Shown here piece by piece: positions 23,275-40,336 of a stretch of DNA of 56,974 bases. Every line of letters starts with the position of its first letter. Within the stretch, counting starts at the first letter, position 1. The stretch is taken from NCBI GenBank assembly GCA_015660645.1, contig DQKS01000042.1, forward strand, positions 1 through 56,974. The letters are read 5' to 3'. The notes under the pieces were generated by a model, which was not told the origin of the DNA, searched no databases, and saw only the letters and a list, made by a program, of their open reading frames with translations. Made by a program: the position numbers and the translations under genes. This DNA is from Gammaproteobacteria bacterium. Lineage in GTDB: Bacteria; Pseudomonadota; Gammaproteobacteria; Magnimaribacterales; Magnimaribacteraceae.

Positions 23275-26262
23275 ATGAATAAGAATTCTATAAACTTTAT
23301 TGTTATTTCTAGTCTAATGGCCTTTTCTTCTTTTAGCTTTGCAGCTGATGAAGAAGAAGAAAAAAGAGGTGGTATTGAAGAAGTAGTGGTTACCGCAGAA
23401 AAGCGTCAGTCAACTGTATCAGATACTTCTATGTCTATCACAGCATTTGATTCTTCTTTGCTTGAAGATCTAGGTATGCAGGGTCCTGATGACTTAATGG
23501 ATCAATTACCAGCAACAACGCGAGATGCTTACGATGTAAGGATTCGTGGCGTGGGAAGGAATTTTAGAGCACTAGGAGGAGACCCCGGTGTCGCAACATA
23601 CTATAACGGCGTTTATTCTCCTGACTTTGGTATTGCTGCATCAGAGAACTATTATTACGACGTTGAAAGGATTGAGGTCCTTCGTGGTCCTCAAGGAACT
23701 CTTTATGGACGTAACTCGATAGGTGGAGCTATTAACTACATTACTAAAGCCCCTAAATTTGATTCAGAAGGTGAGATTAGAACAGTAGTGGGTGATGATG
23801 GAATGCAACAATATTATGCAATGACTTCCGGTCCTCTGACTGATTCATTGGCCTATAGATTTACCGTTGCAGAAATTGAAAGGGATGGAGATCAATACAA
23901 TATAGGAACGGGACCTGATCTTAATTCACTAAACGATTCGAATTATGTTATGACGCTTCTTTGGAATATCAATGAAGATATGTCCTTTCAAATAAGAGCA
24001 AACGACCGAGTTTCTGACAGATTTATTCCTACTGGTTCTCTGATTACTGAAGGTTATGGACCTAATCGAGGAACTAGAAATAGAACCGATGCTGTTTATG
24101 GCATAAGACCAGCAACTGCAACTACCCCAGGTGCTGTAAAATTTGTTCATCCCATCACGGGAGAAGTGGGTTATGGTGCGCCGAGAATACCCGGTGTTCA
24201 CATAACCGGTTTTCCTTATAGATTAAACCCAGGTTATGGCTTAACTGGACCAAGTGTTTTGGGCACAACCATGGTTAATCCGAACAACGATCAAAATTGT
24301 AATTGGCCTCATAACAATTGTGCCAACGCACATACCCGTTTCGATCAAAATGGTCAACAAGTTAAATTTAATTGGGATGTAAATGACACAACAAACATAA
24401 CTTACTTGTATGGATATGTAGATTACGGTTACACGTTTAATAGAGATTTAGACCAATCTCCTAGTGTAATCTCTCAATACAGAGATACTGTTCTAGAAGA
24501 TGTTCACATGACTACTCATGAAATAAACATTAACTGGATGCTTGGAGATAACATAGAAGTTACTTCTGGTCTTTTCATGATGGATGAGAATAGACAACAA
24601 AACTATTCATTGAACAATAACGTGCCAGGAGTTTTAAATGCAGCCAATTATGGAATCATGGATGTCGGATTTGAAAATTTATATCCATATGGGATAGTTA
24701 TGGGAGCTCCCGGAACTACTGTTATGGGAGTGTTGGGTTGGCCTAGTGATGCGTTGACTCCTCACGTTAGGTTAGGACAGGCCCCTCTGGGTACAACTAT
24801 ATCCGGAAGATGGCAAGGAGATTCAACCGGAGCTGTTTATCGTCACACCAATGAAAACCAAACTGATGCTGTGGCTTATTTTACTCAAGCAACTTGGATG
24901 ATAAATGATGAGTTTTCTCTTGTCTTGGGAGCTAGATATGCCGAAGACGAAAAAGAAGCTTTAGAAATACGAGGAGGGTACACGGAGTTATTTGCAGGCC
25001 CTGTGGGCGGTTACCTACCAGCCTTAAACTTATTGATGGGACAACCTTACATACCAATTGGCGGTGCTGTAACTACTACAGCAGCAACGAACGTGGCTAT
25101 GGGTAATGCTGTCTATAATTATGATCCTGCAATGATTGCCTATTTAACTGGATTAGCTGGAGCAGGAATTATTCCAGCCGGTGCCATATATCCTGGTTCA
25201 ATTGATCCAGCTGCCCCTATAACGCCAACTTGCGAATTAGGAGCTTTGGATTGTGCTACGCCTTTGAGAACGGGGCAGGGTATACCTTACAGTTATACCA
25301 GTACTATAGGTGGTGAGGATAGTTGGGATGATACTAACGTTAGGGTAAACGTGGACTACACACCCAATGACAATCAATTATGGTATTTATCTTTTACAAC
25401 AGGCTTTAGATCAGGTGGTTATGCTCTCGGTATTTCTGGTCAAAGAGACGATGCTAGAGATGAATTTGGCATACCAAATGGTACCGGATCAGTTTTAGTT
25501 TCGTACGACCAAGAAAAAGTAGAAGCGGTTGAGCTTGGCTATAAAGGCTTGCATTTAGATGATACTTTGCAGATCTTTGCATCGATTTACCATTATGACT
25601 ACAATGGCTATCAAGATGAAGTGCAACAGTTTGATCCAATTAGAGGAGCTGGGGCAAATTTTGTTGGAAATGCCGATGGTATTACCAACGAAGGTTTTGA
25701 AATAGAAATGAACTACGCTGCTTCAGATAAGTTAACGCTTTCTGGTAACTACAGTCATACACAGACTGAGTATGGTGAAGATACTTTTGTATTGACTATA
25801 GATGATCCAGAGATACCTGTACCTGTTTTTGGAACGTGTACTCAAGGTTATGTTGGATGTGCTACGGATGATATCTCTTTTGTGCAAGACTATATGGTAA
25901 ATATAAAAGGAGGACCTCTAAAGGGTATTCCTGAAACTAAATTTACTTTAAGAGCCACTTACGAGTTAGACACTAAGATAGGTCCAGTATGGTTATGGTT
26001 GAATCATTCTTATACTGGAGAATTCTCTGCTTCTGGAGTTCAGAGGAAACTTGATGAAGTTCCGGCAAGAGAAACTTCAAATTTAAGTGCTTCTTGGTGG
26101 AATAACGAAGGAGATTTATCAGTTAGATTATATATAAATAATTTAATGAATAATAAAAGTATTTATTCATTAAGCACATCTAGTGATGAGCAGAACTATA
26201 GAAAAACTGGTTCCCCATTATCACCAAGACACTACGGAGTTGATATTAGATATAAATTCTAA
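23275..26262 (+). CDS. TonB-dependent receptor (paralog 2)
   Basis: GGIEEVVVTAEKRQ, VERIEVLRGPQGTLYGRNSIGGAINYITKAP; C-terminal RHYGVDIRYKF. Confidence 0.97.
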   Translation: MNKNSINFIVISSLMAFSSFSFAADEEEEKRGGIEEVVVTAEKRQSTVSDTSMSITAFDSSLLEDLGMQGPDDLMDQLPATTRDAYDVRIRGVGRNFRALGGDPGVATYYNGVYSPDFGIAASENYYYDVERIEVLRGPQGTLYGRNSIGGAINYITKAPKFDSEGEIRTVVGDDGMQQYYAMTSGPLTDSLAYRFTVAEIERDGDQYNIGTGPDLNSLNDSNYVMTLLWNINEDMSFQIRANDRVSDRFIPTGSLITEGYGPNRGTRNRTDAVYGIRPATATTPGAVKFVHPITGEVGYGAPRIPGVHITGFPYRLNPGYGLTGPSVLGTTMVNPNNDQNCNWPHNNCANAHTRFDQNGQQVKFNWDVNDTTNITYLYGYVDYGYTFNRDLDQSPSVISQYRDTVLEDVHMTTHEININWMLGDNIEVTSGLFMMDENRQQNYSLNNNVPGVLNAANYGIMDVGFENLYPYGIVMGAPGTTVMGVLGWPSDALTPHVRLGQAPLGTTISGRWQGDSTGAVYRHTNENQTDAVAYFTQATWMINDEFSLVLGARYAEDEKEALEIRGGYTELFAGPVGGYLPALNLLMGQPYIPIGGAVTTTAATNVAMGNAVYNYDPAMIAYLTGLAGAGIIPAGAIYPGSIDPAAPITPTCELGALDCATPLRTGQGIPYSYTSTIGGEDSWDDTNVRVNVDYTPNDNQLWYLSFTTGFRSGGYALGISGQRDDARDEFGIPNGTGSVLVSYDQEKVEAVELGYKGLHLDDTLQIFASIYHYDYNGYQDEVQQFDPIRGAGANFVGNADGITNEGFEIEMNYAASDKLTLSGNYSHTQTEYGEDTFVLTIDDPEIPVPVFGTCTQGYVGCATDDISFVQDYMVNIKGGPLKGIPETKFTLRATYELDTKIGPVWLWLNHSYTGEFSASGVQRKLDEVPARETSNLSASWWNNEGDLSVRLYINNLMNNKSIYSLSTSSDEQNYRKTGSPLSPRHYGVDIRYKF

Positions 26263-27820: not shown

Positions 27821-27861
27821 TAAGTTAAAGTATTCTTCAATTTTCTTTGTTGGGGATTTTT

Positions 27862-29559
27862 ATGTTTAGATTCTTTTATTATTTTATGAAAGCTTTTCTT
27901 GCAGGCAGTGTTTTTTTTATTTCTTTTTCTATATTTTCTTATAATCCGTTAGAGCCTCTTTTGTGGCCTGATCCGGAATTTAAATCTAAACTTACTTTCT
28001 CTAAATTTACCCATTTCAAAAAACCCATTAGTGCAAAACAATTTCAAGGATCTATTTATGGTTATTTAGAATCTAAACAAACCCCTGCTGAATCTAAATA
28101 TAAGATCCTTAAGGATACTTTAGGGATAAATAAAAATTTTAAGGTATTGTCACAATTACCTAGAATAAAGCTTAAATTTTCCATAGAGAATTCGAAATTC
28201 GTACCGGATTCTCGCTCTTTGCGATCTACGGCAAACTTGTTTTGGGATGTCCAATACGGTGTTGGAGATGTTTGGCATGATGAATTCGGTAATATTAGGT
28301 CTTCTTTCCCTTTCTCTCTTATTCAGAAGAATCAAAATTGCGTCCACAACGGAGTCGTATTATTTGATATGACAGAAGGCGGAGGCATTTCAAATCTTGT
28401 TTATCAGGTAGCGAGTGAAACTTGCTCTTATTTTAAGTTTGATTTAATTGGCTCTTTTGAAGCTTTTATATCAGAAACTGAAAGTTCTAAGCCAATTGAC
28501 GGTATAAGTTATCAGGAATGGAGCCAATCAAATATACCACTAAAATCCATTTCTAAGCTTGGTGAGTCTTCTAAATATTTGGGGTCTGCTAAGGAAGTTA
28601 CTCCAGAGAATATGACGATTTATGGTTTCTACGACGGAGAGTTTCACTATAGAGGTGGGTGTTTGACCAGGAAAGGTAGATACCCTTATTGTAGCGAATT
28701 ATTGGTTCCTTCATTTTCTATTGCTAAATCTATCTTTGCATCAAATGCCATGAGCTTATTAGAAATTGACTTCCCAGGTGTTAAGGATTCATTTATAAGT
28801 GACTACGTCCCAGAATGCTCTGCAAAGAAGTGGAGGGGAGTTACTTTTGAAAATATGTTAGATATGGCTACGGGACAATATCAATACGAGAAGTTTTACA
28901 GTGAAGATTGGTATTTAAGTAAAGAAGGATTTTCAAAACTCTATAAACATAAAGATAAAATCAATTTTTCTTGTAAGGTTTTCAAGAAAAAAACTATACC
29001 TGGAAAAAAGTTCTCGTATCACTCTTCTGATACTTATATTTTAGGAACTGCTTTAAATAACTTTTACAAGACGAAGGCAGATCCAACAGGAGATATTTAC
29101 TATAATTTATTAGTTCCCCTTTGGAAGTCTTTAGGTCTAAGCGATTCGCTTCATGAAGTTACAAGAAGCATAGACGAGATGAGACAACCTTACGCTGAGA
29201 TGGGTATGTTTTTACTTTCAGATGATGTGGTTAAGCTAGGCAAGTATTTTTTAGGTAAGAAAAAAGAAGTACAGCAAGGTATCCTTTTTAATGCTCTACA
29301 AAAAAACAGTGATAATCATGGGCTTGTCGCCATTAAAAATGTGCTCTATTACAACAAGGGGTTTTGGGCCAAGAAATTTTCAGGCAAACAATTTGGATGC
29401 CCTTCGGATTTATGGATACCTTTTATGTCAGGTTTTGGTGGAATCACTATAGTTTTACTGCCTAATGACACTGTTTATTATTACTTTAGTGATGGCGATG
29501 AATTTGAATGGGATAAAGCAGTTAAATTTGCAAATGACCTGAAGCCTTTTTGTTCTTAA
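27862..29559 (+). CDS. Serine hydrolase, beta-lactamase class C / penicillin-binding-like
   Basis: SxxK motif in LLVPSFSIAKSIFAS; YHSSDTYILG in the YxN-like position; N-terminal TM. ATG at 27862 preferred. Confidence 0.75.
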   Translation: MFRFFYYFMKAFLAGSVFFISFSIFSYNPLEPLLWPDPEFKSKLTFSKFTHFKKPISAKQFQGSIYGYLESKQTPAESKYKILKDTLGINKNFKVLSQLPRIKLKFSIENSKFVPDSRSLRSTANLFWDVQYGVGDVWHDEFGNIRSSFPFSLIQKNQNCVHNGVVLFDMTEGGGISNLVYQVASETCSYFKFDLIGSFEAFISETESSKPIDGISYQEWSQSNIPLKSISKLGESSKYLGSAKEVTPENMTIYGFYDGEFHYRGGCLTRKGRYPYCSELLVPSFSIAKSIFASNAMSLLEIDFPGVKDSFISDYVPECSAKKWRGVTFENMLDMATGQYQYEKFYSEDWYLSKEGFSKLYKHKDKINFSCKVFKKKTIPGKKFSYHSSDTYILGTALNNFYKTKADPTGDIYYNLLVPLWKSLGLSDSLHEVTRSIDEMRQPYAEMGMFLLSDDVVKLGKYFLGKKKEVQQGILFNALQKNSDNHGLVAIKNVLYYNKGFWAKKFSGKQFGCPSDLWIPFMSGFGGITIVLLPNDTVYYYFSDGDEFEWDKAVKFANDLKPFCS

Positions 29560-29579: not shown

Positions 29580-30428
29580 ATGAAGCCTTTCTCAATAGCA
29601 GCAGTTCAACTAAGCCTTGAATATACTAACAATTTTAATTTATTGGAAAGAAAAACAAGAGAGGTAGTAGCAAGGTTTCCTTGGGTTCAAATGGTTGTCT
29701 TAAGTGAATTGGCAGCAGGAGGAACAAGTCAGAATGTAGAACATTCTCTTGAAGAATACCTTCCAAAATTAAAGGAAATTTCTAACGAACTTAAAATTTG
29801 GTATGTCCCAGGTTCCTTTTATGACCACAAGGATGGTCGGATAACAAATGCAGCTCCAGTTATTTCTCCTGAAGGAAAATTAATTACTACTTGCACTAAA
29901 ATTTACCCTTTTTTGCCTTATGAGAAAGGCGTGTCGCCAGGCAATGAAGCATGTATTTTTGATGTACCTGGCGCCGGACGTTTTGGCATGCATATTTGTT
30001 ACGATTTATGGTTTCCTGAATCCAGTAGGGCTTTAGCCATGAATGGTGCTGAAGTAATTCTTCATCCAAGTCTAACCGACACCTGTGATCGCGATGTAGA
30101 AAAAGCGATGGCAAGAGCTACAGCTGCCCAACAACAATGTTATTACATAGACGTTAATGCTGGAGGTAATCAGGGATGTGGCCTCTCCATATGCGTAGGG
30201 CCCGATGGAGAAATTTTGCATGAGGCAAATATAGGCGATGAAATAATTCTTGTGGAAGTAGATTTTGAGAAGGTAAAAAGGTGCAGACAAAGAGGGCTAA
30301 AAGGACTTGGTCAGCCTCTTAAAAGTTTTAGAGATAACCCAAGTCCTTTTCTTTCTAATACTCAAAACCAGGACTATTTAGATTCACTGGGTAATTTAGA
30401 TATTCCTTCTAAGAATAAATCTATATAG
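29580..30428 (+). CDS. Carbon-nitrogen hydrolase (nitrilase superfamily)
   Basis: VLSELAAGG (Glu), TKIYPFLPYEKGVSPG (Lys), GMHICYDLWFPESSRALAMNGAEVILHPS (Cys). Confidence 0.93.
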   Translation: MKPFSIAAVQLSLEYTNNFNLLERKTREVVARFPWVQMVVLSELAAGGTSQNVEHSLEEYLPKLKEISNELKIWYVPGSFYDHKDGRITNAAPVISPEGKLITTCTKIYPFLPYEKGVSPGNEACIFDVPGAGRFGMHICYDLWFPESSRALAMNGAEVILHPSLTDTCDRDVEKAMARATAAQQQCYYIDVNAGGNQGCGLSICVGPDGEILHEANIGDEIILVEVDFEKVKRCRQRGLKGLGQPLKSFRDNPSPFLSNTQNQDYLDSLGNLDIPSKNKSI

Positions 30429-30535: not shown

Positions 30536-31357
30536 ATGTTTTTATTTATTTTCAGAACATTTTTATTTATTTTTCTTACAAGTATTTACAATATATCTGC
30601 TTCCGATATTCCTAAAGGACCTAATAATAAGCCTGATCTAAATGGCGTTTGGCAAGTGATGAACACTGCCAATTATAATCTAGAAGCTCATTCAGCAAGC
30701 GCCGCGCTTGATTTAGTTGAAGGACCAGTTGTTCCCATTCCTCATCCTAGTATTGTAGCTTTAGGAGCCGTAGGCGCTGTACCAGCAGGTCTTAGTGTAG
30801 TTGAAGGTGGAACCATACCTTATACAAAAAAAGCTCTGAAAAAGAGAAATAAGAATAAAGAAAATTGGCTAGAGCTTGATCCTGAAATTAAATGTTACTT
30901 ACCAGGTGTACCAAGAGCCACTTACATGCCTTATCCATTTCAAATTTTTCACAGCGAGAAGGCTATTTTCTTTGCTTACGAATATGCTGGAGCAGTAAGA
31001 AATATTTATCTAGATGACCCTGGAGAAGCACCTATTGATTCCTGGATGGGCCAATCTTGGGGGTTCTGGGAAGAAGATACTTTTATTGTAAAGGCTTCAG
31101 GATTTAATGATCAAACATGGTTTGATCGTTCAGGAAATTTTCATAGCGATAAATTGAAAGTAACTGAGCGGTTTACTCTATTAAATAATCATACAATGCA
31201 ATACGAAGCCATCATTGAAGATGAAGAGGTATTTACAAAACCTTGGAAAATTAAAATGAATTTATATAAAAGAATAGGAGAAGATTCTCAATTACAACAA
31301 TTCAAATGTGTTGAATTTGTAGAAGAGCTTTTATATGGAAAATGGCGTGCTAAATAA
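30536..31357 (+). CDS. Secreted protein, divergent member of a three-gene paralog set; function unknown
   Basis: Signal peptide; KPDLNGVWQ, DSWMGQSWGFWEEDTFIVKASGF, KVTERF, matching the two following genes. Confidence 0.75.
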   Translation: MFLFIFRTFLFIFLTSIYNISASDIPKGPNNKPDLNGVWQVMNTANYNLEAHSASAALDLVEGPVVPIPHPSIVALGAVGAVPAGLSVVEGGTIPYTKKALKKRNKNKENWLELDPEIKCYLPGVPRATYMPYPFQIFHSEKAIFFAYEYAGAVRNIYLDDPGEAPIDSWMGQSWGFWEEDTFIVKASGFNDQTWFDRSGNFHSDKLKVTERFTLLNNHTMQYEAIIEDEEVFTKPWKIKMNLYKRIGEDSQLQQFKCVEFVEELLYGKWRAK

Positions 31358-32333
31358 GACTCTAAAAGTTCTTTTAGGGGCATATTTAATCTCTTTATCT
31401 GCATTTACTCACTCAGAGTCTTATCAAACTACAAAGACTTGGTTTGGCGATCCTGATCTGCAAGGAATTTGGACGAATTCTACTTTAACAACATTGGAAC
31501 GTCCGGATAATTTTATAGCGCTTCAAGTTAATAAAAATGAAGCTAGAAAGGCTTCTGTAATTGCTTCGAAAGGAAGCGATGAATACGATAATTTTCTAAA
31601 GGAAGGAGAGACGCCAAAAGCAGGATTAGATGTAGGTGGGTACAATACTGCATGGATGGATCCAGGTACTGAGCTGATAAAAATTAATGGCGTCTACAGG
31701 TCATCTATAATTATTTCTCCAAAGAATGGTAAGTTGCCTTGGGATCAAAAAAAAAGAAGAGAATATTTTGCTAAAGATTATAGGAGAGGCTTTAAAAGAA
31801 CAGATCATCCGGAGTTAAGGGGGGTAGGAGAAAGGTGTATAGTTGGTTTTGGTTCATCGGCTGGGCCGCCAATGATGAATGTTCTTTATAACAATAATTA
31901 TCAAATAGTTCAGTCTCCAGGTTACGTAATGATAATGGCTGAAATGATACACGATTCAAGAATTATTAGACTAGAAGGTAGTCATTTACCAGAATTAATT
32001 GACCCTTGGATGGGTGATTCAATTGGCAGATGGGAAGGAGATACTTTAGTCGTAGAAACTAGAAATTTTAATTACCAACACATTCATAGGGCGGCATTAA
32101 GGCATTACTTTGCAATATCTAAGGATGCCAAGGTAACGGAATTTTTTAAACGAATATCTGATACTGAAATAATGTATCGTTTTAGTGTTGATGATCCTGA
32201 CTTATACAAGAGTTCTTGGCAGGGAGAAATGCCATTGAGATTACAAAAAGATCGTATTTATGAATACGCTTGTCATGAAGGGAATTATGCAATGGCAAAT
32301 ATCCTCGCAGGTGCCAGAGAAAAAGAGAAGTGA
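31335..32333 (+). CDS. Secreted protein, paralog 2; function unknown
   Basis: Signal peptide; TKTWFGDPDLQGIWTNSTLTTLERP, GERCIVGFGSSAGPPMMNVLYNN, EYACHEGNYAMANILAGAR. Confidence 0.85.
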   Translation: MENGVLNKTLKVLLGAYLISLSAFTHSESYQTTKTWFGDPDLQGIWTNSTLTTLERPDNFIALQVNKNEARKASVIASKGSDEYDNFLKEGETPKAGLDVGGYNTAWMDPGTELIKINGVYRSSIIISPKNGKLPWDQKKRREYFAKDYRRGFKRTDHPELRGVGERCIVGFGSSAGPPMMNVLYNNNYQIVQSPGYVMIMAEMIHDSRIIRLEGSHLPELIDPWMGDSIGRWEGDTLVVETRNFNYQHIHRAALRHYFAISKDAKVTEFFKRISDTEIMYRFSVDDPDLYKSSWQGEMPLRLQKDRIYEYACHEGNYAMANILAGAREKEK

Positions 32334-33313
32334 AAAAATATATTCAATTAATTTTAATTTCTTCTCTCGTGGGAATTGGAAACTTATATTCAGAAGAAAG
32401 CTGGAAGAATTCAAAAACTTGGTTTGGTGATCCAGATCTACAAGGAACTTGGACAAACGCAAGCTTAACAAATTTAGAAAGACCAGATTTTTATGACACA
32501 CTCGTTGTTAGTGAAAAACAAGCTGGTATAGCAAGAGAAATGTCTGATCAGTTTGTGCAAGCCGTAGATAACCCTTATGAAGAAGGAGAATCCCCGCAAG
32601 CAGGAGAAAATGTAGGCGGATACAATGTAGCTTGGATGGATCCTGGTACGGAGCTATTTAAAATAGACGGTCAATACAGAAGTTCAATTATAACTTACCC
32701 AGAAGATGGGCAGCTACCAAGGAGGTATACGCGTTGGGGCCTAGAAGCTTACGGCATCTATAAAATGTTTACTCAGGCTAACCACCCAGAAGAGAGAAGT
32801 TTAGGAGAAAGGTGTTTAGTTGGTTTTGGTTCTAGCGGCGGTCCGCCCATGTTAAATGTCCTCTACAATAATCACTACCAAATTGTACAATCTCCAGGGT
32901 ATGTGATGATCTTAGTGGAGATGAATCATGATGCTCGAATCATCAGGTTGGCATCCGATCATAATCCTAATAATATGAAACCCTGGTTAGGAGACTCCGT
33001 AGGTACTTGGGAAGGTAATACTTTGGTTGTTAAAACTATAAATCATCATCCTCAGCAGAAATTTAGAGCCGGTATAAGACATCAAATTTTAGTCATGGAA
33101 GATGCAGAAATTATAGAGCGCTTTACTAGGGTAGGCGATAATGAAATTCTATATGAGTTCGAAGTTGATGATAAAAGAGCTTATAAAGATACTTGGAAAG
33201 GGGAGATGCCTTTAAGAGCAGCGCAGGGCGAAATATATGAATACGCTTGCCACGAGGGCAATTATGCAATGGCAAATATTCTTGCAGGAGCAAGAGCAGA
33301 AGAAAGGAAATAA
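32330..33313 (+). CDS. Secreted protein, paralog 3; function unknown (GTG start)
   Basis: SKTWFGDPDLQGTWTNASLTNLERP, GERCLVGFGSSGGPPMLNVLYNN, EYACHEGNYAMANILAGAR; GTGA overlap with the previous gene. Confidence 0.85.
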   Translation: MKKYIQLILISSLVGIGNLYSEESWKNSKTWFGDPDLQGTWTNASLTNLERPDFYDTLVVSEKQAGIAREMSDQFVQAVDNPYEEGESPQAGENVGGYNVAWMDPGTELFKIDGQYRSSIITYPEDGQLPRRYTRWGLEAYGIYKMFTQANHPEERSLGERCLVGFGSSGGPPMLNVLYNNHYQIVQSPGYVMILVEMNHDARIIRLASDHNPNNMKPWLGDSVGTWEGNTLVVKTINHHPQQKFRAGIRHQILVMEDAEIIERFTRVGDNEILYEFEVDDKRAYKDTWKGEMPLRAAQGEIYEYACHEGNYAMANILAGARAEERK

Positions 33314-33315
33314 TT

Positions 33316-33756
33316 ATGGAAAAAATATTCAAAATCGTTGCGATATACTTTATTCTTATATTTGGTATGAGCACTTATTTAAGTTCTCATCATGCTTTTA
33401 CTGCAGAGTTTGATCCTAATGCTCCAATCAATATAACTGGCAAAGTTATAAAGGTTGAGTGGATTAATCCTCATGCCTGGGTCCATGTTGAAGTTAAAGA
33501 AGGTGGAAAAACTACAGTCTGGATGGTTGAAGGAGGTACTCCGAATACTTTAATAAGAAACGGCATAAACAAAAAAACAATTACGCCAGGAACTGTCATT
33601 GTAGTGAGAGGCTATCAGAGCAAAGGAAAGTTATGCCTACCAAGATGCATTGCTAATGGCAGGGATGTTACTTTTCCAGATGGTAGAAAAGTATTTATGG
33701 GCTCTTCTGGTACAGGAGCACCCAAAGACGGATCAGACCCTAGAGAAAGAAGATAA
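33316..33756 (+). CDS. DUF6152-like exported protein
   Basis: Signal peptide then SSHHAFTAEFDPNAPINITGKVIKVEWINPHAWVHVEV; ATG at 33316 rather than track start 33247. Confidence 0.8.
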   Translation: MEKIFKIVAIYFILIFGMSTYLSSHHAFTAEFDPNAPINITGKVIKVEWINPHAWVHVEVKEGGKTTVWMVEGGTPNTLIRNGINKKTITPGTVIVVRGYQSKGKLCLPRCIANGRDVTFPDGRKVFMGSSGTGAPKDGSDPRERR

Positions 33757-34205
33757 TGACTCTTTTCTCTCGAGGAATTAGTAAACTCAGCTTATTATTC
33801 CTTCTGCTGTTTATACCCTTTCTCTCTTTTTCTACTGAAGAAGATCATTCTGAGATACACGATTTGATGGCCCATTTACTTGATCCAGCAGCTGAAGCTA
33901 TATGGGATTCGGCAGGGTTTGTTATTACGGAAGAAGGAGAATTTAGTTTAGAACCCAAGAATCAAGAGGAATGGGATAAAGTGCTTTACGGCGCTAAGGT
34001 AATTTCTGAAAGCGCTTTTCTTCTTTCTAGACCTGAAATATCGAAGAATCGTAAGGCTTGGATTACTGTTTCTGGTTTATTGAAGGTAGTTGGTGATAAA
34101 GCCTTTGAAGCAGCTGAAAGGCAAGATGTTGAAGAGCTATTTAAAGTAGGCGCTGATTTGTATCAAGTGTGTGTGGCTTGTCATCAAACCTACATGAAAG
34201 ATTAA
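33756..34205 (+). CDS. Cytochrome c (c'-like, single C-terminal CxxCH)
   Basis: Signal peptide; LYQVCVACHQTYMKD at the C-terminus; HDLMAHLLDPAAEAIWDSAG. Confidence 0.85.
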   Translation: MTLFSRGISKLSLLFLLLFIPFLSFSTEEDHSEIHDLMAHLLDPAAEAIWDSAGFVITEEGEFSLEPKNQEEWDKVLYGAKVISESAFLLSRPEISKNRKAWITVSGLLKVVGDKAFEAAERQDVEELFKVGADLYQVCVACHQTYMKD

Positions 34206-34225
34206 AATAATCTGCCTATAATAAG

Positions 34226-34804
34226 ATGCTAAATTTTGTAGAGTGGCTAGCAACTACAAAGTGGAGTATTGCACTTCATGAATCCCTTTATTTATATCCT
34301 TGGATAGAATCATCGCATGTTCTATTTATCTGTTTTTTCTTTGGAACTTTAATATTCGTTGACCTCAGGTTGACTGGAAAAGTGTTTGGAGATCTCTCCA
34401 TAGCTGAAATGAACAAAAAAATATTACCTTTAACCATAATAGGCTTTTGTTTAATGAGCCTTACAGGATTACTTTTATTTTATGCCATACCTATTAGAAA
34501 TTATCAAAATATCTTTTTTAGAATAAAAATCTTCTTAATCTTAGTCGCTGGTTTAAATGCTCTTTTTTTTCACAAAAGAATGTCTAAAGAGGCAAAAAAT
34601 TGGGATAAAGACTCTCTCATACCAACTACTATGAAAGTAAGTGCAGTTGCCTCTTTGTTCATCTGGTCCTTGGTAATAATTTCGGGTCGGTTAATAGCTT
34701 ATAATTGGTTTGACTGTGACAGGCAACCGCAAACCGAATGGATCAATTTCTTAACAAGTTGTGTTGTTGAATATCAATTATATGAAGAAATAGATGGAAT
34801 CTAA
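34226..34804 (+). CDS. DUF6644-like 4-TM membrane protein (copy 1)
   Basis: YPWIESSHVLFICFFFGTLIFVDLRLTG...ALFFHKR...IISGRLIAYNW. Confidence 0.75.
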   Translation: MLNFVEWLATTKWSIALHESLYLYPWIESSHVLFICFFFGTLIFVDLRLTGKVFGDLSIAEMNKKILPLTIIGFCLMSLTGLLLFYAIPIRNYQNIFFRIKIFLILVAGLNALFFHKRMSKEAKNWDKDSLIPTTMKVSAVASLFIWSLVIISGRLIAYNWFDCDRQPQTEWINFLTSCVVEYQLYEEIDGI

Positions 34805-35270
34805 TCAAATAATAGAATTATTCTACTTTTTCGAAGATTCCTTCATAGGTCAATACATTAGGGATTCAACCTGGCTCTTTCCTATTATTGAATCTTTTCA
34901 TTTACTTGGTTTAGCCGTTTTAGGAGGATCAGTAGTTCTAGGTGATTTTAGATTGATGGGTTTTATCTTAAAGACGGAAAAAATTAGTTATGTGGTAAGG
35001 CAGACTAGAACGTGGTTTAAATTCGGGTTTTATTTATTAGTATTAACAGGTGTGCCTTTGTTCTTAAGTGAAGCTGTTAAGTGTTACTACAGCCGAGCTT
35101 TCTGGATCAAGATGGTTTGCCTTGTAATCGGAATAGCATTTACATTTTTAGTAAGAAATCCTTTAGTATTAAAAAATCAGGAAGGAAAGCTCATTCCTTT
35201 ATTAGGATTTTCTTCATTTTTTCTATGGACAGTAGTTGCTGCCTCTGGGAGGTGGATCGGATTTTCGTAG
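34794..35270 (+). CDS. DUF6644-like 4-TM membrane protein (copy 2)
   Basis: FPIIESFHLLGLAVLGGSVVLGDFRLMG...AASGRWIGFS; overlaps copy 1 by 11 bp. Confidence 0.75.
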   Translation: MESNQIIELFYFFEDSFIGQYIRDSTWLFPIIESFHLLGLAVLGGSVVLGDFRLMGFILKTEKISYVVRQTRTWFKFGFYLLVLTGVPLFLSEAVKCYYSRAFWIKMVCLVIGIAFTFLVRNPLVLKNQEGKLIPLLGFSSFFLWTVVAASGRWIGFS

Positions 35271-36963: not shown

Positions 36964-38328
36964 ATGTCTGAATCTTTTTCTAAAAAACTTAGTCTTAAAG
37001 TACGCTTGGGCTATGGTATAGGCGATACCGCTATCTGCTTTTACTGGAGTGGTGTTGGTTTTCTTCTGTTGTATTTCTATACTGATGTAGTTGGTATTTC
37101 ACCCATCCTAGCAGGATCAATTTTTATGATAGGAATGTTATGGGATGCTTTTACCGATCCTTTTATGGGGTATATGGCAGAAAGAACACGTACTAAGTGG
37201 GGCGTATACAGGCCTTATTTACTTTTTGGTAACATTCCCCTTGCTTTATCGTTTGTTCTTTTATTTTGGGTTCCTCCTTTCGATGGCCCGTTATTAATAG
37301 TTTCATTAATATTGATTAATATCTTACACAGAACGTGTTTTACAATTGTAAGTGTTCCATTTTCTTCTTTAACACCAAGGATTACCTCTGACAGTGAAGA
37401 AAGGACGAACTTAACTGGCTTTAGAATGTTGGGAGCTCAAACAGGCACTATCTTAATTACGTCTTTGGCCTTTCCGATAATATTTTTTGTTGGAGGTTCT
37501 GAAGGAGAAGCCAAAGGTTTTTTAGTAATGGCTGCTATAGCCGGTTTTGCCGCTTTAATAATCCAATCTATAACATTCATAACTGTAAAAGAACCTGCTA
37601 ATAGTAAAGGAATAGAAAGAGTCAGTGGAAGTCTCTATGACGCGTTAATTGCCGTCTCAAAGAATAAACCTTTCTGGCTAGTTTTTAGTGCCACTTTAAT
37701 TGTAGGAGTAACCACGCTTTTCTTTGGTAAAAGTTTAATTTACTACGTTAAATATGGATTAGACCTTCATGAACATCAAGGCACTGTCGCCTTTACCGGA
37801 TCAATAATAGGTTTTTTAAGTATTCCAGTTTGGTGGTTCATTTCAAATAAAATAGGTAAGCGCAAAACTTGGTTAATCTCTATGTCATTAACTTTTATTG
37901 CCTTTATTGCCTTTTATCTGTATCCAATTTCTACTTTGAATGAATTACTTGTCTTGGTTGCTTTATTGGGTATAGGCGCAGGAGCTAATGGAATACTTTT
38001 TTGGTCAATGCTACCTGATACTATCGAATATGGAGAAGTTAAAACTGGTATCAGGAGTGAGTCATCTTTATATGGCTTTATGACCTTTGCGCAAAAAGGA
38101 TCAATTGCCATTGCTGCTTCTATATACACTATAGCTTTGACCATAATAGGTTTTGTACCTGATGAAATTCAGACTGTTGAAACTATTACCTCTATGAAAT
38201 CAATCATGAGTCTAATACCTGCATTGGGAGTAGGACTAAGCATTGTATTTATTTATTTTTACCCTTTAGATTCTGAAACACATAAAAAGTTATTGTCAGA
38301 ATTGGAAGAACTGAATGCAGAGAGCTAG
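36964..38328 (+). CDS. MFS transporter, GPH (glycoside-pentoside-hexuronide:cation) family
   Basis: RLGYGIGDTAICFYW, WDAFTDPFMGYMAERTRTKWGVYRPYLLFG. Confidence 0.92.
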   Translation: MSESFSKKLSLKVRLGYGIGDTAICFYWSGVGFLLLYFYTDVVGISPILAGSIFMIGMLWDAFTDPFMGYMAERTRTKWGVYRPYLLFGNIPLALSFVLLFWVPPFDGPLLIVSLILINILHRTCFTIVSVPFSSLTPRITSDSEERTNLTGFRMLGAQTGTILITSLAFPIIFFVGGSEGEAKGFLVMAAIAGFAALIIQSITFITVKEPANSKGIERVSGSLYDALIAVSKNKPFWLVFSATLIVGVTTLFFGKSLIYYVKYGLDLHEHQGTVAFTGSIIGFLSIPVWWFISNKIGKRKTWLISMSLTFIAFIAFYLYPISTLNELLVLVALLGIGAGANGILFWSMLPDTIEYGEVKTGIRSESSLYGFMTFAQKGSIAIAASIYTIALTIIGFVPDEIQTVETITSMKSIMSLIPALGVGLSIVFIYFYPLDSETHKKLLSELEELNAES

Positions 38329-38332
38329 TTAG

Positions 38333-40336
38333 ATGATAAATTGGGGTATTTTGGGTACTGGTTCTATAGCTAATGCTTTTGCTAAAGCTTCGAGCCAAGC
38401 TGATGGTTCGTGTTTAAAAGCTGTTGCAAGTCGGTCGCAAGAAAGGGCAGATAATTTTGCTAAAGAATACTCATTAAGAAGTTTCGGTAGTTATAACTCT
38501 CTTATAGAAGATCCAGAAATAGATGCAATTTATATTGCTACTCCGCATCCAGATCATTTCGAATGGGCTCTTAAGTCATTGAATAACAAGAAATCAGTCC
38601 TTTGTGAAAAACCAATGACAATAAATGCCACAGAGACAATGGTTTTAATTGAATCAGCTAGAAAAAATAATGTACTTTTGATGGAAGCTTTCATGTACAA
38701 AACACATCCTCAAACGCAAAAAATCTTAGAACTTGTAAAAAAAGAATTAAAAAGTCCTGTAACTATTAATGCGGAGTTTTGTTTTTCAGTTGAAGTCCCG
38801 GATACACACAGGTTGGTTAATAAAGATTTGGGTGGGGGTTCTATAATGGATATAGGTTGCTATCCACTTTCAATGTCTAGATTGTTGGTAGGCTGTTTGC
38901 AAGGAAAGGCATTCTCTAATCCTGTTTCTATAAAAATAGAAGCAGAGCTTAATTCAGACGGCGTGGATCTTAACTCGTCTGCTGAACTTCAATTCGATGA
39001 TAGATCTATTGCCAATATAGCTTCAGCAGTCAACAAAAAGACTGAAAGTTCAGTTACTATCTCAGATGGCATAAAGACTGTATTTATAGATCAGCCTTGG
39101 CACTGTGGAGAGTTTACTAAAAGGCGCTCAACTATAGTTGTCTCAGATCAAGAAGATAATAGGGTTAATTATGAAGTAATCTCTACTAAAGATATTTATG
39201 CGCTAGAGATTGAGCATTTTACGAAACTCTTAAATGAATCAAAAGTAGAATCAGATATTATTTCGCATTCTGACAGTCATGGAAACATGATTGCTTTAGA
39301 TACTTGGAGAAAAGGTGCCGGGGTAGTTTATCCGGATGATAAACCTGAAAATAGGTTTGGTTCTATTCTTGGAGTCGATCTGACGGAAGAAAGGAAAAAA
39401 GTTAAGTATAAGAGCCTGGCTGGTCTAGATAAAAGATTATTTCCATTGGTTTTTGGCTGCGATAATCAATCTGACAGTAATCATGCTTTTGGTATGTTTG
39501 ATCATTATTACCTGGAAGGTGGTAATGTCTTTGATACAGCATATATTTATAATGATGGACGAAGCGATAAGTACTTAGGTCGTTGGATAACTTCAAGAAA
39601 TAACAGAGAGGAGATAGTTATTTTAGGAAAAGGAGCTCACACTCCGCATTGTTTCCCATCCGCAATTAGACCTCAATTAGATGAAACTCTAGACAGGCTA
39701 AATACTGACTATTTAGATATTTATTGTTTGCATCGAGACAACCTTGAGGTTCCAGTAGGTGAGTTTATTGATTTACTTAACGAACTAAAGAAGGAAGGTA
39801 AAATAACAGTATTTGGAGCATCTAATTGGTCTTTAGAACGATTTAAAGAAGCTTCAGATTATGCGAAATCAACCAATCAGGAATCTTTTAGCGTTTTAAG
39901 TAATAATTTTAGTTTAGCTAGAATGATTGAACCTGTTTGGCCGGGCTGTATTAGTTGCTCCGATGATGATTTTAAATCCTTTCTTACACAGGAGCAGGTT
40001 GCAATATTTCCTTGGTCAAGTCAGGCAAGAGGGTTTTTTCTAGATAATCAAGAATTCCAAGGTGCTACCCATGGAGCGAATCCAAACCAAGAGGAGCAAG
40101 ACCGAGTTTGGGGAGATAAAGACAATCAAGAAAGGAGAAGCAGGTGTTTTACTTTGGCCAAAGAGCTGGGTGTTGAACCCATTCAAGTTGCATTAGCTTT
40201 TGTACTCAATCAGCCTTTTCCTTCCTTTCCTCTAATAGGACCAAGAAACTTCTTTGAGACAATGAGTTCATTGTCAGCTATAGAAATTACTTTGACGAAT
40301 GACCAAGTCATGTGGCTAGATTTAAATTCTAATTAG
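38333..40336 (+). CDS. Fused Gfo/Idh/MocA oxidoreductase + aldo/keto reductase
   Basis: N-half WGILGTGSIANAF and CEKPMTINATE; C-half VFDTAYIYNDGRSDKYLG, IVILGKGAH, LDIYCLHRDN, VFGASNWS. Continuous 667-aa frame. Confidence 0.93.
   Translation: MINWGILGTGSIANAFAKASSQADGSCLKAVASRSQERADNFAKEYSLRSFGSYNSLIEDPEIDAIYIATPHPDHFEWALKSLNNKKSVLCEKPMTINATETMVLIESARKNNVLLMEAFMYKTHPQTQKILELVKKELKSPVTINAEFCFSVEVPDTHRLVNKDLGGGSIMDIGCYPLSMSRLLVGCLQGKAFSNPVSIKIEAELNSDGVDLNSSAELQFDDRSIANIASAVNKKTESSVTISDGIKTVFIDQPWHCGEFTKRRSTIVVSDQEDNRVNYEVISTKDIYALEIEHFTKLLNESKVESDIISHSDSHGNMIALDTWRKGAGVVYPDDKPENRFGSILGVDLTEERKKVKYKSLAGLDKRLFPLVFGCDNQSDSNHAFGMFDHYYLEGGNVFDTAYIYNDGRSDKYLGRWITSRNNREEIVILGKGAHTPHCFPSAIRPQLDETLDRLNTDYLDIYCLHRDNLEVPVGEFIDLLNELKKEGKITVFGASNWSLERFKEASDYAKSTNQESFSVLSNNFSLARMIEPVWPGCISCSDDDFKSFLTQEQVAIFPWSSQARGFFLDNQEFQGATHGANPNQEEQDRVWGDKDNQERRSRCFTLAKELGVEPIQVALAFVLNQPFPSFPLIGPRNFFETMSSLSAIEITLTNDQVMWLDLNSN

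Follow-up and report, generated by a model that had tools for sequence, protein, structure and literature searches.

An undescribed envelope gene module with a DUF6152-DUF6644 core in the SAR86 group

Gene layout and protein families

Seven plus-strand open reading frames (ORFs) at positions 30536-35270 of contig DQKS01000042.1 (GCA_015660645.1), from a SAR86-group genome, form an undescribed gene module with DUF6152 and DUF6644 proteins at its core. The window, that is the whole stretch analyzed, comprises 56,974 nt of this contig, and all positions refer to its forward strand; the source assembly is 1.42 Mb in size and 86% complete. The gene order is S1-S2-S3-DUF6152-cytochrome-DUF6644-A-DUF6644-B (Table 1). 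A preliminary description made from the sequence alone had proposed seven consecutive genes, nearly all translationally coupled; all seven were confirmed at the stated coordinates, with four overlaps, of 23 bp (S1/S2), 4 bp (S2/S3, GTGA), 1 bp (DUF6152/cytochrome, TAATG) and 11 bp (DUF6644-A/B), and gaps of 2 bp at S3/DUF6152 and 20 bp at cytochrome/DUF6644-A. Relative to the nearest relative, all seven show a nonsynonymous divergence (dN) of 0.05-0.15 and synonymous sites near saturation, which identifies them as real genes under purifying selection. The whole source assembly contains one DUF6152 gene and one DUF6644 pair. A role in anti-phage defence was rejected, PADLOC models matching 0/7 of the proteins.

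The fourth protein, as had been supposed, is an exported DUF6152 member (PF19649, 98.2 bits against a gathering score of 27). A sequence search against solved structures gave no match; its model (predicted local distance difference test score, pLDDT, 83) has a predicted oligonucleotide/oligosaccharide-binding (OB) fold, with Foldseek matches to the OB domain of LysRS, PriB and Rim1. We gathered 140 DUF6152 sequences by family profiles and linkage, so that the counts describe this sample and not the whole family. His-His directly follows the predicted cleavage site in all 140, and is present in 77/77 S1-linked homologs; the stretch before it is signal-peptide-like, and residue -1 is almost always A, S or G. 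The profile alignment places His at model position 1 in 122/140, while the 18 exceptions are displaced by a single residue and still read A-HH. Some 27 residues after His-His there is an invariant Pro-His or Asn-His (140/140; His29 of the mature protein). By sequence rule, with cleavage predicted, DUF6152 thus carries His at position 1 after cleavage. Histidine at this position is rare (2.6% of signal-peptide proteins), and the N-terminal-His families DUF4198, DUF6702 and Ang-HupE bind Ni or Cu, Ang-HupE with a dissociation constant (Kd) of ~70 nM for Cu; DUF6152 is not among the four N-terminal-His classes of that study (PMC12537917). The predicted N-terminal His-His of DUF6152 is likely a metal grip and, with the invariant internal His on a predicted OB fold, is the hallmark of N-terminal-histidine metalloproteins.

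The two tandem four-helix proteins of the preliminary description proved to be DUF6644 members (PF20349), DUF6644-A and DUF6644-B scoring 34.6 and 104.4 bits against a gathering score of 27. The DUF6644 profile aligned with that of HemJ (hhalign probability 85%, E 6e-6, over 87 columns), with the invariant His of the first transmembrane helix (TM1) and a Lys falling on those of HemJ, whereas control comparisons with CopD or HupE gave a probability of 2%. DUF6644-A lies below the Pfam gathering score of HemJ (PF03653, UPF0093; 19.1 vs 34.2 bits), and the profile alignment weakly suggests a DUF6644-HemJ relationship. HemJ is reportedly a b-type haem protein. The control value ruled out a CopD-like membrane partner (PF05425), and a PF05425 search of the source genome gave no match.

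The C-terminal-CxxCH cytochrome was likewise present as described. It scores below the gathering score of class II cytochrome c (PF01322; 13.3 vs 26.5 bits), 23 of 26 homologs match that family weakly (best E 2e-4), and the best Protein Data Bank (PDB) profile match is cytochrome c' (E 0.004, C-terminal part only). In its family the C-terminal CxxCH is invariant, as is a Met (Met38) near the mature N-terminus, and the family appears closest to cytochrome c' and class II-like. Met38 is a candidate sixth haem ligand, which would presumably make the protein a low-spin c556-like electron carrier.

The remaining three proteins had been called paralogous and secreted, and are so: S2 is a lineage-specific duplicate of S3, and S1 (motifs PDLNGVW ... 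SWMGQSWG ... QFKCVEF) is a distant relative of both (28-30% identity over ~130 aa, E 1e-11). S1-S3 gave no match in Pfam and no meaningful match in NCBIfam, Pfam matches among S1 homologs numbered 0/45, and S1-S3 constitute a secreted family lacking a model in either database. No mention of DUF6152 or DUF6644 was found in the literature searched, and the early proposal of an undescribed, all-envelope system was upheld.

Table 1. Features of the module and its flanks (positions within the window)
Feature	Position	Strand	Remarks
S1, exported protein, first gene of unit, 273 aa	30536..31357	+	no Pfam/NCBIfam family; undescribed family
S2, exported paralog of S3, 332 aa	31335..32333	+	55% identical to S3
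S3, exported protein, 327 aa	32330..33313	+	GTG start overlaps S2 stop
DUF6152 protein (PF19649), exported, predicted OB fold	33316..33756	+	Pfam match; model; Foldseek
His25-His26 codons, predicted mature N-terminus of DUF6152 (LSS|HHAF)	33388..33393	+	HH in all homologs inspected
Invariant internal His53 codon of DUF6152 (mature His29; N-P-H motif)	33472..33474	+	140/140
Class II-like (c'/c556-like) c-type cytochrome, 149 aa, C-terminal CVACH, invariant Met38	33756..34205	+	
DUF6644-A (PF20349), 4-TM membrane protein, invariant TM1 His31	34226..34804	+	
DUF6644-B (PF20349), 4-TM membrane protein, invariant TM1 His36	34794..35270	+	
Flank: nitrilase-superfamily protein	29580..30428	+	upstream of S1 in one SAR86 context, 10 loci; not core
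Flank: TonB-dependent receptor	23275..26262	+	upstream in same SAR86 context as nitrilase; not core
Flank: major facilitator superfamily (MFS) transporter + Gfo/Idh-aldo/keto reductase (AKR) fusion	36964..40336	+	downstream, same SAR86 context; not core

Conservation, core and rearrangement of the module

A survey of 299 Pseudomonadota genomes found DUF6152 in 31/299 and DUF6644 in 22/299, with DUF6152 present in 22/22 of the genomes that have DUF6644 (Fisher p = 2e-26). The nearest DUF6152-DUF6644 pair lies within 5 kb in 20/22 and within 1 kb in 14/22, and 19 distant loci or genomes that were read have the pair with no detected S or cytochrome gene beside it. The core of the module is DUF6152 plus DUF6644.

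S3 was found in 21/121 genomes of the order, and each of these 21 belongs to the same family, from which 34 genomes were sampled. The order S1-(S2)-S3-DUF6152-cytochrome-DUF6644-A-DUF6644-B is intact in 16/16 SAR86 relatives whose locus was read; the refuting condition set beforehand, a gene order not kept beyond this strain, is excluded by this result and by the re-linkage of the families outside SAR86. S2 is missing in many SAR86 relatives, so the conserved SAR86 unit comprises six genes. The module occurs in two unrelated SAR86 contexts. In the first, that of the window, a TonB receptor and a nitrilase precede the module, and MFS and/or Gfo-AKR genes usually follow it; in the second, pseudoazurin and a saccharopine-dehydrogenase-like gene lie upstream, and a pyrroloquinoline quinone (PQQ) dehydrogenase usually lies downstream. 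The module alone is common to both, which fixes its borders. Because the flanks differ, the nitrilase, MFS, Gfo/AKR and pyruvate kinase genes are not core, and a single-purpose reading from the flanks was rejected.

The module is found in hundreds of bacteria, with rearranged versions in Gammaproteobacteria, Alphaproteobacteria and Acidobacteria. A scan of GTDB genomes with S1 gave 442 relatives, and the best 80 of these include Steroidobacter, Povalibacter uvarum, Peristeroidobacter, Litorirhabdus, Pseudohongiella, Phenylobacterium, Hyphomonadaceae and Acidobacteria. Marine Gammaproteobacteria, Sphingomonadales and Acidobacteria had been named as the range to search; the module was found in Gammaproteobacteria and Acidobacteria, and its range is wider than the marine groups named. 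S1 in distant loci is usually followed by DUF6152, after which come DUF6644 genes in Alphaproteobacteria, some Gammaproteobacteria and Acidobacteria, and in many Gammaproteobacteria a convergent block (cytochrome-HupE/UreJ_2-anchor protein) that replaces DUF6644; Litorirhabdus (L131) has both DUF6644 genes and this block. The presence of cytochrome, S3 and DUF6644 genes varies beyond SAR86, and so does their strand. The HupE/UreJ_2 partners have His right after a cleavage-like motif (predicted His+1) in 21/21.

Genomes of family f42, from another class of the phylum and by our guess Sphingomonadales, carry up to 8 DUF6152 copies, in the order TonB receptor-S-DUF6152-DUF6152-S (L187:3392-9742; L192:13010-18263); in L187 a cytochrome b561/YceI fusion comes next, in place of DUF6644. 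At L167, PepSY, a TonB receptor and FecR lie beside the DUF6152-DUF6644 pair. PQQ and glucose-methanol-choline (GMC) dehydrogenases are among the neighbors of the module, and solute-binding ATP-binding cassette (ABC) operons, FbpABC-like, lie beside some gammaproteobacterial loci. One acidobacterial genome (G452, 4.2 Mb) contains 82 S genes and 31 DUF6152 genes, intermingled (e.g. L237-L256), whose commonest other neighbors are outer-membrane receptor-type genes (CarboxypepD_reg/OMP_b-brl_4).

Several further genes recur at these loci. In the window, the 667-aa ORF at 38333-40336 reads as the Gfo/Idh-type oxidoreductase fused to an aldo/keto reductase, and several SAR86 genomes retain it downstream of the module. 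The 570-aa exported protein encoded at 27847-29559 weakly matches beta-lactamase/esterase-like proteins and is kept beside the nitrilase-like gene in some relatives. The gene for pseudoazurin, a blue copper protein, lies near the module in SAR86 loci of the second context (e.g. L102:8196-8648(-)). In gammaproteobacterial loci, a ~195-aa single-TM-looking protein (cluster c4, 26 loci; L164:11477-12061(-)), with no Pfam or NCBIfam match, lies beside HupE/UreJ_2, and a ~215-aa exported family (cluster c10, 15 loci; L132:8842-9495(-)), with no Pfam match, lies downstream of the cytochrome in several.

Possible functions of the module

We tentatively favor an explanation of the locus as a metal-binding redox module of the periplasm, often linked to a TonB receptor. 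For metal binding and the identity of the metal, haem in DUF6644, electron flow and the role of S, we infer the following scheme. DUF6152 would be secreted, and signal-peptide cleavage would expose the N-terminal His-His, which, probably with the invariant His29, would chelate a transition metal on the OB-fold body, copper being most likely and Ni or Fe possible. DUF6644-A/B, as HemJ-like four-helix membrane proteins, would probably bind b-type haem via the TM1 His. Their soluble electron partner in the periplasm may be the class II-like cytochrome c, and electrons are therefore proposed to travel from the membrane to the DUF6152 metal site or in reverse. Secreted S proteins would bind or process a ligand or substrate that, in many lineages, may enter through the neighboring TonB receptor. 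The metal and redox theme is kept when partners are swapped, given the His+1 of HupE/UreJ_2, the b561-YceI fusion of L187, the PepSY, TonB receptor and FecR genes of L167 and the PQQ and GMC dehydrogenases. The earlier suggestion of a periplasmic redox or metal-handling module is supported in outline (His-His DUF6152, His+1 HupE, HemJ-like DUF6644, class II-like cytochrome). Several observations weigh against this explanation. Copper-specific genes are not regular neighbors; the large acidobacterial S/DUF6152 expansion fits substrate diversity better than metal homeostasis; cleavage of the DUF6152 signal peptide is predicted only by the AxA rule, and the window protein has LSS instead of AxA. 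The S proteins are without a known fold (poor model; no significant match in a PDB search), and for S1 (model pLDDT 72; best PDB matches E ~0.05, weak calycin/fatty acid-binding protein-like only) no fold assignment was used.

A possible but rather doubtful alternative is metal acquisition or delivery, in which DUF6152 would be a metallochaperone that picks up Cu, Ni or Fe in the periplasm and passes it on to DUF6644 (or HupE) for transport or reduction, following the logic of CopC-CopD, YcnI-YcnJ and Ang-HupE; S proteins and TonB receptors would supply a metal complex. Delivery is favored by the minimal DUF6152-DUF6644 pair, the HupE swap and the iron-uptake-like neighbors of L167 (PepSY/FecR/TonB receptor), and is consistent with the predicted His+1 on both DUF6152 and its alternative partner HupE/UreJ_2, the FbpABC-like operons and the Cu affinity of Ang-HupE given above as a precedent (PMC12537917). 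However, the 31 DUF6152 and 82 S genes of a single genome would be odd for metal homeostasis, copper genes are not regular neighbors and DUF6644 does not align with CopD. Delivery and metal-based catalysis are two sub-models of the favored metal-binding redox reading. Catalysis or substrate processing is favored by the dehydrogenase, cytochrome and b561 neighbors and the huge paralog expansion. One form of this, which we regard as improbable, would make DUF6152 a new class of N-terminal-histidine copper oxygenase/peroxygenase on an OB fold, taking electrons from the cytochrome and DUF6644 (or b561, or PQQ/GMC dehydrogenases), with S proteins presenting TonB-imported substrates.

A catabolic accessory without a metal site, in which the neighboring TonB receptor imports an organic compound for S and DUF6152 to bind or process, and the cytochrome works for a PQQ or GMC dehydrogenase encoded nearby, would draw on the same paralog expansion and dehydrogenases, on the TonB-receptor neighbors in SAR86 and at L187/L192 and on the receptor-type neighbors in acidobacterial loci; it leaves the invariant His1, His2 and His29 and the His+1 HupE partner unexplained, the widespread two-gene core as a rule shows no S, receptor or dehydrogenase, and we consider it unlikely. 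We give little credence to haem handling, whereby HemJ-like DUF6644 and DUF6152, with an OB fold like that of the haem chaperone CcmE, would convey haem to an acceptor in the periplasm, for instance the neighboring cytochrome. The HemJ relationship, the predicted OB fold and the c-type cytochrome next door point that way, but CcmE is absent from the 50 best fold matches of DUF6152, the two-gene core usually lacks a cytochrome, and conserved ligands at a free N-terminus are typical of metal ions and not of haem. Coincidence, that is an operon of unrelated exported proteins, is barely credible: order and strand do vary outside SAR86, but the same families re-associate repeatedly in Gammaproteobacteria, Alphaproteobacteria and Acidobacteria, and the DUF6152-DUF6644 co-occurrence contradicts it.

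Relation to known systems and wider meaning

CopC and YcnI are beta-sandwich proteins. The module resembles CopC-CopD and YcnI-YcnJ in that an exported protein with a mature N-terminal His and an internal conserved residue is encoded next to a multi-helix membrane protein; in contrast, DUF6152 has a predicted OB fold, on which a CopC-like fold was ruled out (Foldseek), and DUF6644 aligns with HemJ, not CopD. The Ang-HupE/UreJ_2 anglerases and DUF4198/DUF6702 are also conserved His+1 envelope metalloproteins, and HupE/UreJ_2 is the alternative partner in gammaproteobacterial loci (PMC12537917), but DUF6152 is another family with a different predicted fold, and HupE here has a short N-terminal tail and no Ang domain. 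With the HemJ/UPF0093 protoporphyrinogen oxidases, DUF6644 shares a multi-helix plan and, in the profile alignment, the invariant TM1 His and Lys; it falls below the UPF0093 Pfam cut-off and is linked to exported proteins, not haem synthesis. Lytic polysaccharide monooxygenase (LPMO) systems with GMC, PQQ or cytochrome donors (PMC5960967) likewise combine an N-terminal-His protein with dehydrogenase or cytochrome neighbors, but DUF6152 lacks the LPMO fold and the likeness is an analogy only. The module works like pairs of an N-terminal-His protein and a membrane partner but belongs to none of them, since the fold and profile tests against CopC and CopD failed.

For DUF6152 and DUF6644, two widespread families of uncharacterized proteins, these results offer a hypothesis in definite chemical terms, and they bring to light S as a large secreted family without a model in Pfam or NCBIfam. 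The module is testable in cultivated carriers, namely Povalibacter uvarum, Steroidobacter, Litorirhabdus and Peristeroidobacter. Were the oxygenase/peroxygenase proposal true, the acidobacterium with 31 DUF6152 and 82 S genes would possess an array of periplasmic enzymes that carry out oxidations. Should a free N-terminal His of DUF6152 prove to hold copper, the N-terminal-histidine metalloproteins would gain an OB-fold class, and the module would show how abundant, hard-to-culture oligotrophs (SAR86, Acidobacteria) handle metals or perform periplasmic redox chemistry.

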